64,000 bases of DNA. Origin: Brachyhypopomus gauderio (lineage: Eukaryota; Chordata; Actinopteri; Gymnotiformes; Hypopomidae). The notes beneath the pieces are model-generated. The model was not told the origin of the DNA and did no database searches. It saw only the letters and a list, made by a program, of their open reading frames with translations. The DNA lies in assembly GCF_052324685.1 (NCBI RefSeq), contig NW_027506982.1, positions 124,001 to 188,000 on the forward strand. Direction: 5' to 3'. A program made the position numbers and the translations under genes. Shown here in pieces: positions 47,326 to 64,000 of the stretch (position 1 is its first letter; each line of letters opens with the position of its first letter).

Positions 47326-48300
47326 TCAATCCCCATTAACTACACCTACACTACCACTATTAAGCCTACGAGAAATGAGAGCAGCACCCTCCCAAGATGG
47401 GTGAATGCCGTCTCGCTTCAAAAGGACAGGCCTGCCCTCAAAACGTGACCAATTATCTATATAACCCACTTTGTTATCTGAGCACCATTTAGACATCCAG
47501 CGGTGCAACGCCCATAACCTGCTGTAGGTTTCAGCGCCACGCCGAACTGGAATGGGACCAGAGCATATTACGGCATCTGACATCGTCCCCGCTAACTCGC
47601 ACACCTCTTTAACATTATCCTTGGTGATCTCAGACTGTCTCAATCCCACATCATTGGTGCCGACGTGTATAACTATCTTAGAATATTTACGTTTAGCCAG
47701 CACCTTAAGATTAGCCCTGATGTCAGGCGCTCTAGCCCCCGGGATACACTTGACTATGGCCGCTGGTGTCTCTAAACTAGTCGCTACGTTCACGTGTCTG
47801 AGCTGTGAATCTCCTATCACCAGAGCTCTTTTAACAGGTCGCTCAGTCGGTGTATTACTGAGTGGGGCAAACCTGTTTGACACGGGAACCTGAGAAGGAC
47901 GGTGCTCAGCCCTACGGTTATGCCGCCGAGACGTCACCCATTCGCCCCGCTGCGAGGGCTCTAATGCCGGAGCTGAGGGCTCGCTAGCTACAGCTGTGCA
48001 ACCCGGGCCTGCTACGCTAGCTGCTGTAGCTGGTACAAACTCTCTAGGACTTTCTAAAGCCCGGATGCGCTCCTCTAAAAGCGAAATCTTCTCCGTCATA
48101 CTAATAACTAACCTACACTTCACACAAATATAATTATTATTATCACTACTGACGGAAGAAGAGTAGCTATACATGCCACACTCAACACAAGCAACAAGCA
48201 ACTCAGACATGATGAAATACTTAGCTTCGGTTAGGATGTCAAAATGTCGAAGATGTTTCCAGTCGAAGAGAGTAGTCAACTGTCTTGATAGTGGAAGCAC
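47326..48300 (-). CDS. L2-like LINE ORF1 with SGNH esterase-like domain (copy 1)
   Basis: The likely start is the ATG at 48210 (MSELLVACVECGMYSYSS), giving about 294 aa; 30 more in-frame codons lie upstream. It has a Cys-pair segment (CVECGMYSY, CVKCRLV), a short coiled coil (TEKISLLEERIRALE), a basic linker (SRRHNRRAEHR) and an SGNH-hydrolase-like domain with ALVIGDSQLRHV, IVIHVGTNDVG, ICSGPIPV and DGIHPSWEG (Asp-x-x-His). ORF1 proteins of this type bind LINE RNA; the esterase-like part is typical of L2/CR1 lineages. It ends 97 bp upstream of the ORF2 start and is fully open. Confidence 0.85.
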   Translation of the reverse strand: MLPLSRQLTTLFDWKHLRHFDILTEAKYFIMSELLVACVECGMYSYSSSVSSDNNNYICVKCRLVISMTEKISLLEERIRALESPREFVPATAASVAGPGCTAVASEPSAPALEPSQRGEWVTSRRHNRRAEHRPSQVPVSNRFAPLSNTPTERPVKRALVIGDSQLRHVNVATSLETPAAIVKCIPGARAPDIRANLKVLAKRKYSKIVIHVGTNDVGLRQSEITKDNVKEVCELAGTMSDAVICSGPIPVRRGAETYSRLWALHRWMSKWCSDNKVGYIDNWSRFEGRPVLLKRDGIHPSWEGAALISRRLNSGSVGVVNGD

Positions 48301-48936: not shown

Positions 48937-49911
48937 TCAATCCCCATTAACTACACCTACACTACCACTATTAAGCCTACGAGAAATGAGAGCAGCACCC
49001 TCCCAAGATGGGTGAATGCCGTCTCGCTTCAAAAGGACAGGCCTGCCCTCAAAACGTGACCAATTATCTATATAACCCACTTTGTTATCTGAGCACCATT
49101 TAGACATCCAGCGGTGCAACGCCCATAACCTGCTGTAGGTTTCAGCGCCACGCCGAACTGGAATGGGACCAGAGCATATTACGGCATCTGACATCGTCCC
49201 CGCTAACTCGCACACCTCTTTAACATTATCCTTGGTGATCTCAGACTGTCTCAATCCCACATCATTGGTGCCGACGTGTATAACTATCTTAGAATATTTA
49301 CGTTTAGCCAGCACCTTAAGATTAGCCCTGATGTCAGGCGCTCTAGCCCCCGGGATACACTTGACTATGGCCGCTGGTGTCTCTAAACTAGTCGCTACGT
49401 TCACGTGTCTGAGCTGTGAATCTCCTATCACCAGAGCTCTTTTAACAGGTCGCTCAGTCGGTGTATTACTGAGTGGGGCAAACCTGTTTGACACGGGAAC
49501 CTGAGAAGGACGGTGCTCAGCCCTACGGTTATGCCGCCGAGACGTCACCCATTCGCCCCGCTGCGAGGGCTCTAATGCCGGAGCTGAGGGCTCGCTAGCT
49601 ACAGCTGTGCAACCCGGGCCTGCTACGCTAGCTGCTGTAGCTGGTACAAACTCTCTAGGACTTTCTAAAGCCCGGATGCGCTCCTCTAAAAGCGAAATCT
49701 TCTCCGTCATACTAATAACTAACCTACACTTCACACAAATATAATTATTATTATCACTACTGACGGAAGAAGAGTAGCTATACATGCCACACTCAACACA
49801 AGCAACAAGCAACTCAGACATGATGAAATACTTAGCTTCGGTTAGGATGTCAAAATGTCGAAGATGTTTCCAGTCGAAGAGAGTAGTCAACTGTCTTGAT
49901 AGTGGAAGCAC
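48937..49911 (-). CDS. L2-like LINE ORF1 with SGNH esterase-like domain (copy 2)
   Basis: The second copy of the ORF1 described at 47326-48300, with the same predicted protein, 1611 bp away. Its likely start is at 49821. It belongs to the upstream unit of the tandem 5' duplication and is followed only by a truncated ORF2. Confidence 0.85.
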   Translation of the reverse strand: MLPLSRQLTTLFDWKHLRHFDILTEAKYFIMSELLVACVECGMYSYSSSVSSDNNNYICVKCRLVISMTEKISLLEERIRALESPREFVPATAASVAGPGCTAVASEPSAPALEPSQRGEWVTSRRHNRRAEHRPSQVPVSNRFAPLSNTPTERPVKRALVIGDSQLRHVNVATSLETPAAIVKCIPGARAPDIRANLKVLAKRKYSKIVIHVGTNDVGLRQSEITKDNVKEVCELAGTMSDAVICSGPIPVRRGAETYSRLWALHRWMSKWCSDNKVGYIDNWSRFEGRPVLLKRDGIHPSWEGAALISRRLNSGSVGVVNGD

Positions 49912-53793: not shown

Positions 53794-55655
53794 TCATGTA
53801 GTTTTAGGTACACAGTTGCCACACAGCCAGGGACACTCTGCCCTACACTTGCGACAGGTGTACTTGCCGCATGCAGCGCACGGGGTTATGCTGTGGTTCC
53901 GGTTGCAGTTTGTCTGCACCTGACACGTAGTCTTCTTTCCAGGAGCAGGCGAAGGACGTGGCGTTCTCTTCAACTCCTTTTTCTGTAGGAAACGAAGACG
54001 GAGTTCCTCAGCAAGAGCACACATAAAAACTCTCCTACTCTCTGTGGACCCCGTACATGCCGTGTACAAAACATGCGCGTTCATCGCTGCCAGGTCAAGT
54101 ATGTTATAAAACGGGCAACGGGCAACTGCAACGGGCCACCGGCATGTTCCTGCGCGCACTGTGTATGCATGTGCCTTCTGGTCCATGATGTCAACGGCGC
54201 ACTGCAAAGAACAAATACAAAGAAGTACATGTTATATTTTGAATAAATTCATTCATGTATGATAAATTGATTTATCAATGCCAACACATGCATACCTTCG
54301 TCCGGTTGTAGTCCGTCACAGTGTTTGGCTTCCTTTTGCGGTCGTCTGCAATCTCCACGTGCGTGTGCATAGTGCTCAGAACGCAAACTGTTTTGTTGGG
54401 CTTGGAGGCATACACCGTCAGAAGCGCATCATCGGATCTGTACACCTCCATTGACAACTTCTCATGTCCCTTGGCGTTTTTGGCTTCCAAAGGAACTTCT
54501 CGGCGAATCTTGTTCATTGTCCCAAGCAGAGTCGTGTTACATTCCAGCAGCTTCTTAGCCAGGGAAAGAGATGTGAAAAAATTGTCTGTGGCTACAGTTC
54601 TGCCCTTGCCCAGGTATGGCTTCATAAGCTTCATCACCACATTCTCGGACACTCTTTCCCCCTTGGGACGATCGGGGTCCTTTCCAAGTTATGGAATGGC
54701 GTTGCACATGTACTTTGTGTTCAACTCAGAAGCAACCCAAAACTTTATTCCAAACTTGTCTGGCTTTGAGGCAATGTACTGGGTGAATGGACAGCGAACC
54801 TTGGTCGGAAACAGCTGCTCGTCGACTGTCAGTTCCTTGCCTGGGGTATAGCACAAAATGCAGTTGTTCACAAATCGCTGCCAGATGTCCGAGATCGCAG
54901 CAAATCTGTCGTTCTTTGCACGCTCCGCACGGGTGTCCTTATTATCAAAGCGCAAGTACCGCATGATTTCTTCGTAGCGGTCCCGTGCCATTGTCTCCTG
55001 GATCGAAGGCACAGCGAACATTGCCGACCAACAGTCCGACATCGCTCCAACTGGACAGAGGACTGCTCGTAGAAATAGGATTGCTACGAATGCCATGAAC
55101 TCGCTGACCGACAAACTCCAGCTGCTGTCTGTTCTGCGGGCTTCATGGACAGTGCAGTCTGTGATGATTCGCAGCATCTCCATGTTGAGCAAACACAGAA
55201 AACTCTGCAGTCTGCTTGTGATCCTACGCTGTATTAGTAAAAGTAAACAAATGACGCTAGGTAAATTACACGTACTAAATATCATTCAAACACAAGCAGA
55301 AACACTGGAAAGAAATATGAAGTTACTATACCTTTGCATGCTCTGTAGGCCCGGACGGCTCAACGAATGTTGAATTAGGCGAACAGCTGCTGACACGAGA
55401 GCGTGCGATGCCAACCTTCTCCCAAACAGTTCCATCTTTTGCCCGTACAGTTGGTGCAGGTGTGGTGTCAGCCTGTGTCCGTCTCTTCCTTGGAGGGCTC
55501 TGTTGTACCTCATCTGATGTACTGCTTCTTTCTTCATCGGATGAATCGCTGGTCAAAAAACAGGAGGGTCCTTCTCCCGCATCGGACTCACAGCAGTCCT
55601 CGTTGGTCAGCAAAACCGCAACTTCTTGACCGGTGAACGTCCTCTGTCTTGCCAT
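53794..55655 (-). pseudogene. piggyBac transposase, three exons, one premature stop
   Basis: The exons are 55332-55655, 54296-55228 and 53794-54201, with GT-AG introns in phase 0. It starts MARQRTFTGQEVAVLL and has an acidic N-terminus. The DDE_Tnp_1_7 domain shows MRYLRFDNKDTRAE, the first catalytic Asp in LTVDEQLFPTKVRCPF, the second in VATDNFFTSLSLA and the third in CAVDIMDQKAHAY. The C-terminal cysteine-rich finger reads CNRNHSITPCAACGKYTC and CRAECPWLCGNC. An in-frame TAA near 54690 sits where the family has Tyr (between NAIP and LGKDPDRPKGERV), splitting the protein between the first and second catalytic Asp. Otherwise the 555-codon gene is intact. No terminal repeats could be placed. 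Confidence 0.9.
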
Positions 55656-56605: not shown

Positions 56606-56712
56606 TAGGTGTGTGTGCTATCCAAAATCATATGGTCTTTTGAAGTATGAGCTGTGTGTCCCAAACCAGAGTGTCTCTAATTTAAATTAGTTGATTTTTA
56701 TCAGAAACATAT

Positions 56713-57143
56713 GGCTGTAGAGAGTCGTTTGATCAGGACCATCGTGAGACCCCTTTATCTAAATTAGTTTAGATGGTCTGAGCCATCTAACGCAATTACC
56801 ATTTCAATCACCTGTCTGCACCGACTTCACACAGATAGTGTCTTCCATGGAAAATATTTTAGAGAAATAAAGTTTAATTACCTTAAAATATTTACAGCCT
56901 AAAACGTCCTGTGGTTCATAGCTGATATGGGTGTAGAGAGCCGTTTGATCAGGACCTTAGTGAGACCCCTTTATCTAAATTAGTTTAGATGGTCTGAGTC
57001 ATCTTAACGCAATTACCGTTGCAATCACCTGTCTGCATCAACTTCACACAGATAGTGTCTTCCATGGAAAATAAATATATTTTAGATAAGTAAAAAGTTT
57101 AATTGTCTTAAAATATTTACAACCTAGAAAAGTCTCGTGGATC
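56713..57143. repeat. 216-bp imperfect direct repeat upstream of the viral-type gene
   Basis: CGTTTGATCAGGACC occurs at 56726 and 56942, and about 190 bp following each is nearly the same (GAGACCCCTTTATCTAAATT, TTTAGATGGTCTGAG, ATAGTGTCTTCCATGGAAAA). The second copy ends about 120 bp upstream of a TATA box. Confidence 0.9.
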
Positions 57144-57261
57144 GGCCGTTATCTTAATCAACTGAGTTCATGCAGTTTAATTCATGGGGGAGTGGCTTCT
57201 CGCGAACAAAGCAGATTTTTTTACGCGGGATTTCCCCCGTAAAACCTGCGTGGCTTTTCTG

Positions 57262-57268
57262 TATAAAT
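57262..57268 (+). promoter_or_regulatory. TATA box candidate
   Basis: TATAAAT lies about 75 bp upstream of the first ATG (57341) of the six-exon gene, at a usual distance for a short 5' leader. Confidence 0.5.
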
Positions 57269-57340: not shown

Positions 57341-59404
57341 ATGGCATCTAACAGCGTTAACGGTAAGAAAGATTTTCACTATTTACTTTTATTTTCATTG
57401 TAGATGGTCTGATTAATCTTTTTTAAATTTGCAAACAACATTTTATTTATCAATAACCAACCTCTTCCTAAATGCTATGTTTCTCACTGTTGTAATATAT
57501 TGTTGCAGGGGGCGATGATCGTATGGTGTCAGAAGTTGCTCGCGATGCAGCGGGTGAAAGTAAGTATTTTATTTAGCATTTACTTTTTAAACGTTTACTT
57601 AAAAAAAGATTTTAAACGTTTACTTTTTAAAAAGATTTTAGAAGTTCTTTTCAACTTTTCAACTGTTCGTGAAGGGGGTAGTGGGGGGGTGTGGCGTGTG
57701 TATCGCCCCAGAATGCAATGCGGGGGGCTGGGTGATAGGCGGGGTTTTGGGGGGTGCCTTAAGCCTGGTTTATACTCGACGCGCCGCGAGCGGCGCGAGG
57801 GTCCGCGCGGCGAAAATGACGTAATCGCTGTGGCTCCGCCCGTGCGCGAGGGCCTCGCGCGCTGTCGCGGCGCGAGGTCGTGCACCTCTAGAATTTTGTA
57901 ACTTCGCGCGCGCGCCGCGCTTCAGCGCGATGGACAAAGTCATGTTTGCCGGGTTCATACGCCTATACAAGGTGGAATTAATGCACTTGTACGTCACTTT
58001 AAAGGTCCATTTCAATATTTCCCAGCACGTTAAACTTAATTAATTTAAATATTTATACATATACTCGAAATGAATCGAAATAATTCGCTTTTTTATCACA
58101 TTATTTAATGGTTGTTTATTTTCAAAACGCCCAATCTTAACGTCTTCACGTTCTCTCATGTTTCGTCCTGGAATTACAAGAGGCTCGTATTTGTTAACGT
58201 AATTTCAACATTTTAATGTACTTTAGCCTAAATTCCAGCACTTTTCAAACCTGAAACACAAAGCAACATTAAAATGCGTCAGGTAAATGTTCATTCCCTT
58301 TTTTTTGAGGGGTGTTTCTTTATACTACCACATATAGTTTCGGACAACATTTCAAAGTCATATTTATGTTTGATGCCTGGTGTATATATACGGTCTCTGG
58401 TCAGGTAAAATGTTCTTTCACCGGTTTTGCAGGGGTTTTTTATTCTCCACTGCCACCTATCGCCACCTATCGTTTCGGAGAACACTGCAGCGACGTTCGC
58501 GAAAGTATAAACGCCTACACCGCTCGTGCAGGGTCGCGCGAGGTGGGCAGGGCCGGGCGCTACAGTCACTCGCGAAAGTATAAACCAGGCTTAAGTGTGA
58601 TTTAAACTCGACGCGCGTTTCTCTTCAAAACAGCTCTATGCAATTGCCCGTGTTCCTGCGGACCGCTTTCAAGACGTCGTAAGTTAATTTACACATCGCA
58701 AAAAATGTACTTAGTTTTTTCGATTACTGAGAGCATTTTGTATTTTATTTACAGCTATAGTGTTTGGAGAATCTAGCGTGGTGAGGCCGGTGGCAATAGT
58801 GACGCCCAGAATTCGTTTAACCCTGCAAGTACCTAGTAAGTAAAGAGAAAATAATTATTTTTAATTATCAGTGATTTGTGTTGTTAACTGTAATGAACAT
58901 TTTACATATTTTCTTCATTAGATACGCCTGTTGAAGAAGAACCATCCGACGAGGGTAATATTTCGGATATTAATATCGATCCCGAGCAGGAGGGTTACGG
59001 GGCTCCGGATAATATCGAGGAATACGACGCAGGGTACACGCCTCCCGGTAAGATTTTTAAAATACAAAAAACTAATTTTATTTTACCTTTTACGTGGAAT
59101 AATCGAAACTCATTTCTTTTATGTTTTGTTTTCAGCATCGGACTCCGAAGACGGATATACTGACGAAGAAACCGAGTCACCCTACGTGATTCTTTTGGGG
59201 AGTGTAGAGGAGTACCCTACCGAACTTTTTATTCAATTCATGCAAGCCAAGGACGCAGTGGTTTTCGCTTTGGAGGACCTGGGTTTTAGTGAACGGAACG
59301 GACCATCTGAAGCGTTATCGGGGGAGCTACACCGCAGTTTGTTCGCAACTATACGCCTTGTTCAGGAGTTTTGGCGCATCATTGATCACATTCACACGCG
59401 GTAG
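57341..59404 (+). CDS. Six-exon gene of an adintovirus/Maverick-like element (197 aa), unknown function
   Basis: The exons are 57341-57362, 57509-57559, 58634-58678, 58755-58835, 58922-59047 and 59136-59404. Every junction is GT-AG, every intron is in phase 1, and the total is 594 nt ending in TAG. The product starts MASNSVN; exon 3 is a short cysteine cluster (CNCPCSCGP), exon 4 is beta-strand-like and basic, exon 5 strongly acidic, and exon 6 starts acidic (SDSEDGYTDEETES) and ends helical (VQEFWRIIDHIHT). I do not recognise the family. It lies directly upstream of, and in the same direction as, the polymerase (73 bp from its likely start), so it is probably an early or regulatory gene of the same element. 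Function is not inferred beyond that. Confidence 0.65.
57759..58594. mobile_element. MITE in intron 2 of the six-exon gene (836 bp)
   Basis: Perfect inverted ends TTAAGCCTGGTTTATACT and AGTATAAACCAGGCTTAA bound the element. Internal sequence next to the ends is rich in CGCG (GCGCCGCGAGCGGCGCGAGG). If TTAA is the target duplication it would be a piggyBac-mobilised MITE; a shorter TA or TAA target is also possible. It lies wholly between splice sites. Confidence 0.9.
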
Positions 59405-59476
59405 GCTCGAGCTTATTACCTCTTGTGTTTGTTTTTTCTGAGTTTTTTTTATTTTAATCTTATCCTTGTTAGCAAC

Positions 59477-62400
59477 ATGTCTGAAGAATCCAACTATGTA
59501 AATACCGATTTAATCAATGTTGTAAATGAATTACCGAATGTAATACTGCCTGCTACAAACCACCGGGGTTTTGATGAGCCGCATAGCGTGCCTGATGAGT
59601 TGGATCTAATCAACCAGAGTTTGCTCAGTTTACAGAATAGTGTTGTAAATGCACCGTTTGATGTCTTTGACGAAATAAATCAGAATTTGATGACGATGGA
59701 TGTTGAGAACAATATTGTTTCTAGTTGTGATTTTTCTTTGGGTCAAAGTTTAAATGTTGACGCTGATGAGGGTTGTTCTAATTGGACAGCAACCAGGTCT
59801 TTGCATGGTACACTAAATGAGCCCGCTAACTGCACAGAAATATTGTCGGATACACCCGTAGCTATTAGCCCCAGTTATAATGAGGCAGATTCCTTCGTCG
59901 AGGAGCTGTCAGATATTTTAAATGATATTGACGGGGTACCGGCTGATCTCTCCAGCGATAACAGCTTGTTTGACCAAATTGAGCGTATGTTTGATAGTAT
60001 TGAGGAGGCCGAGTTGATTAGCAACGAGCCTAACGCTCAGCAGAGTGGGTGTGGCTCTAGTTCAGCAGATTCTGACACCCGTATGGTGAAGAGACCGCGT
60101 TTTAATAACACCGAGCTTCGTAGAGCTATACATTTTTCAGCTCTGCTACAAAACGTTGATAGCTTTGCTGAATTTTTTGTAATGGTTTTGGAACAGCTAG
60201 AGGGGTTGTTGGCCGAAGCTAACCCCTTAATTTCTGCCTGTGATGCGATTACTGTAGCAATACGTGGTGATACGATCGATGTGGGGTCACGTGTACCTGT
60301 AGTCAATGGCAGGGTAGAAATGGATCATTTTCTGGCATTATTTGAAAATGCAATTCAAAGTAAAGTTGAAATATTATCGGATGATACATTAGAAATCGTT
60401 ATTCAAATTGTTCATGCCCCCAGAGGCGGAGCCGGAAGGAAGCGTAAATTAGCTGATCTGCTGGAATCAGAAATTGTTTGTAAAAAGTTTAAAGAGTTGT
60501 ATGTTTTCCATAACCGGAATAACTTGTGTTTTGCATTATGTGTAGTGCAGTTATTGAATCCAGAAATGAACATTGTAGACGTGGAGGCGTCTGCTAACAA
60601 TTTACAGCGTGATGTCGGTCTAACTGCTGAGCATATGGTTAGTTTTGCTGATATACCTTTGTTTGAACAGCATCTGGGGTGTAAAATTGTGGTTCTGTAT
60701 CGTGACAGGTCAAAGAAAGGATACAGTTTTTTTCAAACCAGCGAGTTACCTCATGATAGAACGATCTTCATATATCTGCAAAATAATCATTATTACGGTG
60801 TAAAGAATGTCAAGGCCTTGTTGGGTAGTGAATATTTTTGTAAATTCTGCTATGCTACATACAGTCGTAAAATAGGTCATAAATGTGTTTACCACTGTAA
60901 TGTTTGTCTTGACGCTGAATGCTACAAACGTAGTGAGGATAAGTTAACTCGATGCATGGACTGTCAAAGGTTGTGTAGGTCACGTTATTGTTATGACGCG
61001 CACAAACGACAGACGGGTTCTGTGGAGGGTAGTAGCTTGTGTAGCAGAGCGTTTTACTGCCGTAACTGTAACAAGGTGTTTGACATACCATTATCAGGCC
61101 GCATGAAACATAAGTGTGCGGAGCCGCGTTGTAAGCTCTGTGGCGAGACAATTGATTCGTCACATGATCACCAGTGCTTCATTCAACCACTGCCTGTGAA
61201 AGAGCCTAGTGAAAAGCTCATCTTTTATGATTTCGAATGCCACCAAGAAACGGGTAAACATGTCGCTAACTTCATCTGCTGTATGGATTTTAAAGGAGAT
61301 ACGTGGACTGCTGCTGGAGAGGATTGTGTGAAGCATTTCTTCACTAGGTTTAGAAATAAGAAATTTTCAGGGTACACGTTCGTAGCTCATAATGCTAAAG
61401 GGTACGACTCGTATTTGTTGCTCAACTATCTCGTCAAGCAGGGGGTTACTCCCACCATCATTGCGCAGGGCAGCAAGGTGATGTGCTTTACCGATGATGC
61501 ATTCAATCAGAGGTTTATTGACAGCCTGTGTTTTCTGCCTATGAGGCTGGCAGCCATGCCGCGTGCGATGGGGTTCGCGACAGAAATCAAAGGGCATTTT
61601 CCCCACAGATTTAATATTCCTGAAAATCAAGGGTATGTGGGGCCTTACCCCGCCCCCGAATTCTACGATGTTGACAACATGATGAGGAAAGACAGAGACG
61701 AGTTTTACCGTTGGTATGAGACTGTAAAAGATGGTGTCTTTGATTTTGCTAAAGAGATAGAATTGTACTGTGTAAACGACGTGAAGATTTTGAGAAATGC
61801 ATGCATGATCTTCAGACGGGAAATCTTAGAAAACTCAAACGTTGATCCGTTTAGCTGCATCACTATAGCTAGCGTGTGTTTAAAAATTTTCAGAACTCTC
61901 TTTTTAGCTAGGAACACCGTAGCCATTCCTCCTTTGGACCTGTATATAAATAGACAGAAGACGTTTTCTACACCCGCTATTCAGTGGCTAGAATTCTTAA
62001 TGCGCAGCCAGAACATTCACATACAACACGCTCTCAATGGCGGTGAAGTATGGTTCGGCAGATACGCGGTAGATGGTTATTATGAGGCAGGAGATGGGTC
62101 AGGAAATGTCTTTGAATTCTTAGGATGTTTTTATCACGGATGTTCAAAGTGTTTCGCGCCACACGCCCAACATCCCTTATACAAAGACATGTCTTACGGG
62201 GAGGTGAGAGAGAGAACACAGGACAGAATCCAATACCTGAAACACACCCATAAGGTACAGGTGACTGTATTGTGGGAGCATGAGTGGTTGGAAATGAGAA
62301 AATCTGATGATGATGTGAAATGCTTTCTGAAATCATTCGACATGCCAGAACGGCTGAACCCACGTGATGCGCTGTTTGGTGGGAGGACGAACGCACTCCA

Positions 62401-63691
62401 CCTCCACTATGTGGCACAGCCGGGCGAGAAGATCGAGTATTACGATTTCACCTCACTTTATCCGTTTGTGAATAAGACAAAAACATATCCCGTGGGGCAC
62501 CCAACGATCATTTTTAAAGACTTTGAACCGTTGGAGAATTACTTTGGCATTTTCAGAATCAAAGTGCTTCCCCCTAGAGGTCTGTGGATGCCTGTCCTGC
62601 CATTCCGTGTGGGGGGGAAGTTGTTGTTTCCTCTCTGTAGAGAATGCGCGATCGCAGGGATGTCAAATTGCCAGCACAGTGATGCTGAACGGGCTCTAAC
62701 CGGTACGTGGTCGAGCATAGAAGTTTTGAAAGCTCTGGAGCTGGGGTATACAGTTATCAGAATTTTTGAAGTGTGGCACTTCCCAGCAAGCTCTTCAGAA
62801 CTCTTTTCGGGGTACATCAAGATGTTTTTAAAAACAAAACAGGAGAGCTCAGGCTACCCGGCATGGGTCAAGAACGGTGATGACGAACGCGAGTACATAC
62901 GTCTGTACAGCCAGCGTGAAGGCATCGTGTTGCAGCCTGAAAATATTACCCAAAACCCTGCTAAGAGATCTGTGGCGAAGCTGGCTCTGAATTCTCTTTG
63001 GGGTAAGCTATGCCAGAGAGCTGACAGATTAAACACTACCCTTGTTTCAGAGCCTGAAGCATTTTTACAGTTCATGTTCTCTGAAATGTATAATGTCAGC
63101 AACTTCACATTTGTGACAGACGATGTGGCGATGGTTCAGTGGCGATATGCCGATCAGAGATGTTTGGATCCTGGTAATTCAAATGTTTTTATAGGTCTTT
63201 TTACCACTGCCTATGCCCGGTTGGAGCTCTATAATGTAATGGAGAAGCTTCAGAGGCGCGTGCTGTACACAGACACTGACTCTATCGTTTTTGTCTCTCG
63301 CGATGGTGACTGTAAACCTATGCTCGGAGATTTCTTAGGCAATCTTACTAGCGAGTTGGCAGATGGTGATCATATTGTGGAGTTTGTGAGCGGCGGTCCA
63401 AAGACCTACGGGTACCGCACGGCTCAAGGCCAGACGGTGTTGAAAGTTAAGGGGATCACATTAAATTACAACACCAGTAAAATAGTTAACCTGAAATCTC
63501 TTACGGATCTGGTTGATACGCATGTTAAAGATCCGAGTCAATCAAAAGAGCTCATGACATCACGAAACCAGATATGGCGAGATAAAAACGGTTTTCACTT
63601 AAGAAATAAACCATTATTGAAAAGATTCAGAGTCGTGTATGATAAGCGCGTGCTTCTGTCTGATTTCTCCACTGTGCCTTATGGTTTTTGA
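59477..63691 (+). CDS. Protein-primed-type family B DNA polymerase (adintovirus/Maverick-like), intact
   Basis: One open frame of about 1404 codons from the ATG at 59477 (18 more in-frame codons start at 59423, but the second ATG has the better context). Numbering from 59423: an acidic, low-complexity N-terminus to about 220; a globular region (RAIHFSALLQNVDSFAEFF; FALCVVQLLNPEMN) to about 470; and a Cys/His cluster at about 475-590. The 3'-5' exonuclease has YDFEC (about 601), FVAHNAKGYDSYLLL (about 653) and YCVNDVKIL (about 783). The polymerase has motif A YYDFTSLYPF (about 1006), motif B KLALNSLWGK (about 1186) and motif C LYTDTDSIVF (about 1281). All catalytic acids are present. It would replicate linear viral-type DNA from a protein primer. 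Length fits the upper range of Polinton/adintovirus polymerases. No stop or frameshift is seen. Confidence 0.92.
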   Translation: MSEESNYVNTDLINVVNELPNVILPATNHRGFDEPHSVPDELDLINQSLLSLQNSVVNAPFDVFDEINQNLMTMDVENNIVSSCDFSLGQSLNVDADEGCSNWTATRSLHGTLNEPANCTEILSDTPVAISPSYNEADSFVEELSDILNDIDGVPADLSSDNSLFDQIERMFDSIEEAELISNEPNAQQSGCGSSSADSDTRMVKRPRFNNTELRRAIHFSALLQNVDSFAEFFVMVLEQLEGLLAEANPLISACDAITVAIRGDTIDVGSRVPVVNGRVEMDHFLALFENAIQSKVEILSDDTLEIVIQIVHAPRGGAGRKRKLADLLESEIVCKKFKELYVFHNRNNLCFALCVVQLLNPEMNIVDVEASANNLQRDVGLTAEHMVSFADIPLFEQHLGCKIVVLYRDRSKKGYSFFQTSELPHDRTIFIYLQNNHYYGVKNVKALLGSEYFCKFCYATYSRKIGHKCVYHCNVCLDAECYKRSEDKLTRCMDCQRLCRSRYCYDAHKRQTGSVEGSSLCSRAFYCRNCNKVFDIPLSGRMKHKCAEPRCKLCGETIDSSHDHQCFIQPLPVKEPSEKLIFYDFECHQETGKHVANFICCMDFKGDTWTAAGEDCVKHFFTRFRNKKFSGYTFVAHNAKGYDSYLLLNYLVKQGVTPTIIAQGSKVMCFTDDAFNQRFIDSLCFLPMRLAAMPRAMGFATEIKGHFPHRFNIPENQGYVGPYPAPEFYDVDNMMRKDRDEFYRWYETVKDGVFDFAKEIELYCVNDVKILRNACMIFRREILENSNVDPFSCITIASVCLKIFRTLFLARNTVAIPPLDLYINRQKTFSTPAIQWLEFLMRSQNIHIQHALNGGEVWFGRYAVDGYYEAGDGSGNVFEFLGCFYHGCSKCFAPHAQHPLYKDMSYGEVRERTQDRIQYLKHTHKVQVTVLWEHEWLEMRKSDDDVKCFLKSFDMPERLNPRDALFGGRTNALHLHYVAQPGEKIEYYDFTSLYPFVNKTKTYPVGHPTIIFKDFEPLENYFGIFRIKVLPPRGLWMPVLPFRVGGKLLFPLCRECAIAGMSNCQHSDAERALTGTWSSIEVLKALELGYTVIRIFEVWHFPASSSELFSGYIKMFLKTKQESSGYPAWVKNGDDEREYIRLYSQREGIVLQPENITQNPAKRSVAKLALNSLWGKLCQRADRLNTTLVSEPEAFLQFMFSEMYNVSNFTFVTDDVAMVQWRYADQRCLDPGNSNVFIGLFTTAYARLELYNVMEKLQRRVLYTDTDSIVFVSRDGDCKPMLGDFLGNLTSELADGDHIVEFVSGGPKTYGYRTAQGQTVLKVKGITLNYNTSKIVNLKSLTDLVDTHVKDPSQSKELMTSRNQIWRDKNGFHLRNKPLLKRFRVVYDKRVLLSDFSTVPYGF

Positions 63692-63854: not shown

Positions 63855-64000
63855 ATGAATCACTGTGATGGTTTTGATGTTAGGTTACAACATCCTTTTT
63901 CATGCATTGTAAGTGGGCCTAGCAATAGCGGGAAATCTTTTTTTATTAAAACATTGTTAGATAATTGTGCTGTGACATGTACACATGTTCCTGATAACAT
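63855..64000 (+). CDS. P-loop ATPase, packaging type, N-terminus only
   Basis: An ATG at 63855 opens a frame to the window edge (48 codons). It contains CIVSGPSNSGKSFFIKTLL, a Walker A motif (GPSNSGKS) preceded by a beta-strand, near the N-terminus. A P-loop ATPase next to a protein-primed polymerase fits the FtsK/A32-like DNA-packaging ATPase of adintoviruses and Mavericks, but the Walker B and arginine finger lie outside the window, so the subfamily is inferred from context. Confidence 0.7.
   Translation, partial: MNHCDGFDVRLQHPFSCIVSGPSNSGKSFFIKTLLDNCAVTCTHVPDN

Follow-up and report, generated by a model that had tools for sequence, protein, structure and literature searches.

The closest described systems to the locus treated here are the vertebrate Mavericks (Polintons) and the adintoviruses. 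In the passages of Barreat and Katzourakis 2021 (PMC8097293) considered here, the DNA polymerase gene PolB and an ATPase gene form the first gene module of vertebrate Mavericks, and no introns were seen in the genes of intact elements, a statement that may rest mainly on the conserved genes, with accessory regions perhaps less examined. For adintoviruses, passages of PMC11071296 define the "Oncoid" accessory proteins, also mentioned in passages of PMC10812802, by short linear motifs, and describe no multi-exon gene upstream of PolB. Among the titles and abstracts within our search, whose scope did not extend to the founding adintovirus paper, none describes an accessory gene with spliced exons in Mavericks or adintoviruses of fish, nor do the passages of PMC11071296, PMC8097293, PMC9683012 and PMC10812802 that were examined for splicing terms. 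Here we describe a small six-exon gene directly 5′ of PolB in a Maverick/adintovirus-like element of the electric fish Brachyhypopomus gauderio, found in a 64,000-nucleotide (nt) stretch of contig NW_027506982.1 (positions 124,001 to 188,000), hereafter the window.

A spliced gene directly upstream of PolB

The gene and its neighbour are laid out as follows (P0001 to P0005 are the database proteins treated below; aa, amino acids):

57341-59404, plus strand: small spliced gene of six exons, directly 5′ of PolB
57341-57362, plus strand: exon 1, 22 nt, encoding MASNSVN, with the ATG in the context aaaaccATGG
57509-57559, plus strand: exon 2, 51 nt, symmetric 1-1, matched by P0001 and P0002 from Met13
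58634-58678, plus strand: exon 3, 45 nt, symmetric 1-1, encoding the Cys cluster LCNCPCSC, without counterpart in P0003-P0005
58755-58835, plus strand: exon 4, 81 nt, the most conserved part of the gene
58922-59047, plus strand: exon 5, 126 nt, acidic, the most diverged of exons 4-6 in P0003-P0005
59136-59404, plus strand: exon 6, 269 nt including the stop, with an acidic start followed by two predicted helices
59405-59476, plus strand: spacer of 72 nt from the stop of the small gene to PolB, with a pyrimidine-rich acceptor near its end
59477-63691, plus strand: PolB, intact, 1404 aa in one open reading frame (ORF), matching DNA_pol_B_2 (E 1.4e-42)

When joined, the exons give 594 nt that encode 197 aa and end at a TAG stop; all five introns begin with GTAAG, end with AG and lie in phase 1, and the four internal exons are all multiples of three in length. 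This is exactly what a sequence-only reading of the window had claimed, namely six exons of 22-269 nt with GT-AG borders, running 594 nt to a stop with every intron in phase 1. The plus strand from 57341 to 59520 contains six GT[AG]AG sites, five of which coincide exactly with exon ends, while the sixth (GTGAG at 58780) lies within exon 4. The GC content is 0.46-0.57 in the exons versus 0.21-0.26 in introns 1, 3, 4 and 5; that of intron 2, which is 1074 nt long, is 0.44, or 0.41 without the insertion that it carries. When codon usage was scored with PolB as the reference, the predicted frame was the best of three in five of the six exons.

The arrangement was compared with chance by searching for ATG-to-stop chains whose GTAAG introns are consistent in phase; the longest in the real region has 594 nt and five introns. 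Chains with at least five introns appeared in 8 of 2000 dinucleotide shuffles, none of them (0/2000) reaching 594 nt, and 11 of the 2000 held a chain that was 594 nt or longer but had fewer introns. In 110 other 2140-nt pieces of the window (taken from both strands and overlapping, the minus-strand set including the complement of the gene region itself), no chain had five or more introns, and in 21 pieces a chain with fewer introns reached 594 nt or more. Under a stricter acceptor rule one true acceptor was overlooked and the best five-intron chain in the real region fell to 552 nt; five-intron chains then occurred in 0 of 300 shuffles and 0 of the 110 pieces. The six-exon structure read from the sequence is confirmed.

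Uncharacterized proteins of the same fish match the small protein

A protein search with the small protein brought five of 154 candidates to E<=1, all of them uncharacterized B. gauderio proteins in NCBI/UniRef, with models that are apparently spread over three contigs. P0001 (LOC143496594, 185 aa) is a 99% match that covers exons 2-6 and differs at a single position, residue 179; because of this difference, the window may hold another copy or haplotype than the locus of P0001. P0002 (LOC143485207 isoform X2) is 90% identical and also spans exons 2-6, with an altered exon 5/6 junction. The remaining three, P0003-P0005 (LOC143485713 and LOC143485710), form a more diverged group that is about 69% identical over 68% of the query; they keep the 4/5 and 5/6 borders, lack exon 3 and have different 5′ exons. 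Residues 41-65, in exon 4, are identical at 25 of 25 positions in all five proteins. Junctions 2/3 to 5/6 are supported since P0001 crosses them, and 4/5 and 5/6 are supported by the diverged group as well. Two isoforms of LOC143485713, X2 (P0004) and X3 (P0003), have different N-termini and are further set apart by an in-frame block of 20 residues that only one of them contains.

A wider search kept to the same circle. A profile of P0001-P0005, taken to E 10, returned the same five B. gauderio proteins only among the 7995 best word-sharing candidates scored; both protein searches depend on shared 5-residue words, so remote relatives could escape them. Scans of viral contigs guided by PolB found relatives in 0 of 4 and 0 of 15 matched stretches, the alignment behind the latter scan comprising 14 of the 120 listed PolB matches. 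No Pfam family was found for the window product (E up to 1) or for P0001 (E up to 10), and when PDB sequences were searched with the small protein, only two matches appeared, to ribosomal proteins and at E 1.9. In a comparison with the N-terminal 450 residues of the 120 PolB proteins listed, the best E value was 1.4 by blastp with five queries and 0.21 by phmmer with the window protein. The gene had been put forward as unrecognised: this holds for family and name, whereas uncharacterized NCBI/UniRef models of it in B. gauderio already exist.

Among those polymerases, a second B. gauderio PolB (P0007, LOC143485425) has a long N-terminal extension and three near-identical internal 56-residue repeats starting at 164, 220 and 276. 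This extension was considered as a homolog of the small protein and rejected: the two appear collinear by eye, yet the local score of 27 was reached by 1904 of 2000 shuffles, and with soft gaps 564 of 2000 shuffles reached the score; among the 120 PolB N-termini P0007 ranked tenth.

The polymerase and a putative shared transcription unit

By its sequence the element is of Maverick/adintovirus-like, endogenous viral type, in line with the viral-type element that had been proposed, since a polymerase of this type begins after the 72-nt spacer. The window PolB matched 483 proteins at E<=1e-20 among 5557 candidates; among the best 120 of these, which were listed, its nearest relatives come from the same fish (P0006, 97%; P0007, 66%), Astyanax (63% and 61%), Ictalurus (62%) and Anguilla (55%). 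It is 47% identical to the PolB of the Larimichthys croaker adintovirus (P0031), and is thus recognisable by protein search against a named member of the Adintoviridae; a general Pfam scan (E<=1), with no search aimed at the N-terminal part, found no OTU family corresponding to the OTU-like domain of the adintovirus PolB N-terminus. Downstream lies one further ORF of the element:

63855-64000, plus strand: truncated ORF of 48 residues with the P-loop GPSNSGKS, ending with the window; probable ATPase

Its matches, to P-loop families that include Adeno_IVa2, FtsK and Pox_A32, are all below the cutoff. Hexon, integrase, capsid and protease genes, like the other end of the element, would fall beyond the window. 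An ATPase-like ORF behind PolB and an accessory region outside the core module are likewise features of vertebrate Mavericks in the passages of PMC8097293 considered; unlike the intact elements reported there as intronless, this one has five introns in its accessory gene, with PolB as one ORF. The introns had been called unusual for the class, which agrees with that report.

Several observations connect the small gene with PolB. The acceptor in the spacer ends at 59472, so that an exon would begin at 59473, with the PolB ATG following 4 nt later (59477), and the tract before this ATG is 76% pyrimidine over 45 nt. Neither AATAAA nor ATTAAA occurs between the stop of the small gene and the PolB ATG. 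Moreover, a single database gene, LOC143485207, carries both products: its isoform X2 is the small protein P0002 and its isoform X1 is a PolB (P0006, 97% identical to the window PolB over 87% of the query part). That one gene covers both suggests one alternatively spliced unit, and we infer that a single transcript yields the small protein and PolB as alternatives. Among the closest eight PolB matches listed (P0006-P0013, two from the same fish), seven are named "isoform X1", which hints at annotated alternative transcripts in related fish elements too.

Our preferred reading, which we hold to be probable, is that the left end of a Maverick/adintovirus here carries a spliced accessory gene, which forms the 5′ part of one unit with PolB and encodes an early-type acidic regulator. 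On this reading a TATA promoter would start the transcript, and splicing of all six exons would give an acidic protein of 197 aa, or of 185 aa from Met13. The polymerase mRNA would arise when an upstream donor is joined to the acceptor in the spacer. Since the internal exons are phase-1 symmetric, each can be skipped in frame, and the gene could in this way yield a set of isoforms.

The upstream region and repeats

The sequence before the gene and within its second intron contains the following:

56709-56917 and 56925-57143: two tandem copies, 209 and 219 nt long and 87% identical, with AGAGAG near each start (56719 and 56935)
57219-57244: imperfect palindrome of 26 nt, with a consensus kappaB-type core GGGATTTCCC at 57227-57236
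57262-57268, plus strand: TATAAAT, TATA-box-like, 79 nt before the exon-1 ATG
57758-58595: insertion of 838 nt inside intron 2, bounded by perfect terminal inverted repeats of 19 nt (CTTAAGCCTGG...)

A TATA-to-ATG pattern has 16 matches in the window versus 7.7 expected, and omits the site at 57262 because its ATG is too far away. The pattern GGGRNWYYCC occurs six times on both strands of the window versus 4.1 expected, a count that 25 of 100 shuffles reach, which makes the kappaB-type core a post-hoc lead. Maverick ends have terminal inverted repeats, an (AG)3-type motif (the end motif in the passages of PMC8097293 considered) and a 6-bp target duplication; here AGAGAG stands in the tandem repeats, which are possibly the left terminal region of the element. 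A 20-nt piece of these repeats recurs in intron 1 at 57401 (90%).

The insertion in intron 2 is, judging from its ends, probably a miniature inverted-repeat transposable element (MITE). A 27-nt segment at 58590-58616, made up of 6 nt inside the insertion and the next 21 nt (58596-58616), is an 85% match to the insertion's left end. Exon 3 was considered as part of a MITE-like insertion and this was rejected: the exon itself has no match, and only the neighbouring 27 nt are similar.

An acidic protein with a predicted helical C-terminus

The 197-aa product has an isoelectric point of 4.2. The Cys cluster of exon 3 and the acidic exon 5 that had been pointed out are both present, the latter with 13 Asp/Glu and no Lys/Arg in 41 residues. 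An AlphaFold model of P0001 built from five sequences has a predicted local distance difference test score (pLDDT) of 42, with an N-terminal part that lacks helices or long strands; the low model confidence and the composition together suggest that the acidic region is disordered. Exon 6 modelled alone (89 residues) reaches pLDDT 63, still a model of limited confidence, and shows two predicted helices of 20 and 26 residues, in line with the helical end anticipated from the sequence. There was no significant fold match: Foldseek with this C-terminal model gave eight BFVD matches at E<=10, the best at 3.1, and none in PDB. TP/SP sites number four, a count reached by 67 of 500 shuffles.

Our best guess for the role, an early-type regulator with a helical C-terminus, is drawn from the acidity, the apparent disorder, the place before PolB and the lack of a recognised enzyme family. 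Such a protein might recruit host factors through its disordered acidic region, with the C-terminal helix pair serving for binding or dimerisation. Adenovirus E1A is an early regulator of a small DNA tumour virus. The product described here would resemble it at most in the way it works, being acidic, probably disordered and encoded by a spliced gene that precedes the polymerase. No relation to E1A emerged from the Pfam or PDB sequence searches or from the fold search.

Weighing the readings

A number of observations weigh against the preferred reading. With regard to the gene model, P0001 and P0002 both begin at Met13 in exon 2 and exon 1 is absent from them as coding sequence, so the coding role of exon 1 and junction 1/2 has no independent support. 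Exon 3 is the sole exon in which another frame outscores the predicted one; it is the least secure exon, because its frame scores worst on PolB codon usage and because it begins 38 nt past the inserted element. P0003-P0005 read exon 6 in a different frame at their C-terminus, and the 5′ exons of these proteins may stem from a neighbouring element, perhaps joined by annotation; residues 17-52 of P0005 give a weak match to Herpes_teg_N, the herpesvirus tegument N-terminal family (E 0.097). Splicing is known here from sequence and from gene models; models from the NCBI pipeline generally rest on RNA.

With regard to the unit and its product, P0006 begins inside PolB, and a phase-1 donor joined to 59473 opens a frame that stops 24 nt past the PolB ATG without entering PolB, so that translation of PolB would call for leaky scanning, a different start site or a different leader. 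The window is rich in AT, and TATAAAT is frequent in it. Neither the sequence search nor the profile search of proteins yielded a relative in another fish. CtBP-type, nuclear localisation signal (NLS) and SUMO patterns are each absent from the window product, the lack of an NLS-type motif telling against a regulator, as does that of LxCxE, and its four CK2-type sites are not enriched (shuffle mean 4.9; reached by 387 of 500 shuffles). LxCxE is the chief Oncoid motif. As a small accessory protein in an adintovirus-type element the product is like the Oncoid proteins; unlike that class, neither it nor P0001-P0005 contains LxCxE, the sole class motif scanned.

The strongest alternative, appreciably less probable in our view, is that the small gene is a spliced accessory gene independent of PolB, with a promoter and polyadenylation site of its own, the two-product gene LOC143485207 being an annotation merge of overlapping transcripts. 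It would account for a small-protein frame that does not lead into PolB, and the start of P0006 inside PolB means that this locus is not a clean model; the missing polyadenylation signal before the PolB ATG and the well-placed acceptor at 59473 argue for a shared unit instead.

We think it unlikely that the protein is a membrane-anchored signalling adaptor, in which the exon 3 Cys cluster would be acylated and the acidic part would recruit host signalling proteins. The CNCPCSC encoded by exon 3 would suit such a role, whereas the diverged proteins lack this exon and its codon frame is poor.

Exon shuffling or capture of a host gene, which the sequence-only reading had suggested, is not borne out, and we regard it as quite improbable. 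Its attraction lies in the five phase-1 introns and symmetric exons, and in introns being foreign to intact elements of the class in the passages of PMC8097293 considered. Under equal phases, however, five introns share one phase with a chance of about 1 in 81 by simple arithmetic, and the phase-1 run alone is therefore weak evidence for either process. In both protein searches the relatives are unnamed proteins of the same fish only, and the gene of one of them, LOC143485207, is also credited with PolB; in addition there is no Pfam family, PDB sequences match only at E 1.9, and Foldseek gave no significant match with a model of moderate to low confidence. Least probable of all is a chance alignment of splice-like sites with no gene behind it, for which nothing speaks beyond the poor frame score of exon 3, and against which stand the shuffle and piece tests and the conserved database models.

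Other features of the window

Further mobile sequences lie upstream of the element on the minus strand:

53794-55285, minus strand: split ORFs, two of which were tested and match the transposase family DDE_Tnp_1_7; we take them to be of piggyBac type
47326-48300 and 48937-49911, minus strand: two 324-aa ORFs of identical DNA

Behind each 324-aa ORF comes a further ORF, of 585 aa in one case and 160 aa in the other, and the two begin identically. From their sequence these regions are a recent duplication, and the element is presumably of long interspersed nuclear element type.

Implications for Maverick gene content

Mavericks have been discussed as relatives of adenoviruses, and gene listings based on ORFs miss genes made of 22-269-nt exons. 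Going beyond the preferred reading, we tentatively consider, as a doubtful extension, that the locus is an adenovirus-like early region built by modular splicing, in which an inducible kappaB/TATA promoter would drive phase-1 cassette exons that give regulator isoforms and an alternative acceptor that gives the polymerase; such a region might have been overlooked in Mavericks because surveys sought single-ORF genes. If spliced regulators do occur in accessory regions, gene inventories drawn up for vertebrate elements would be incomplete and there would be a testable parallel to adenovirus early regions. RNA of this gene in living fish would also indicate if elements of this kind are expressed.
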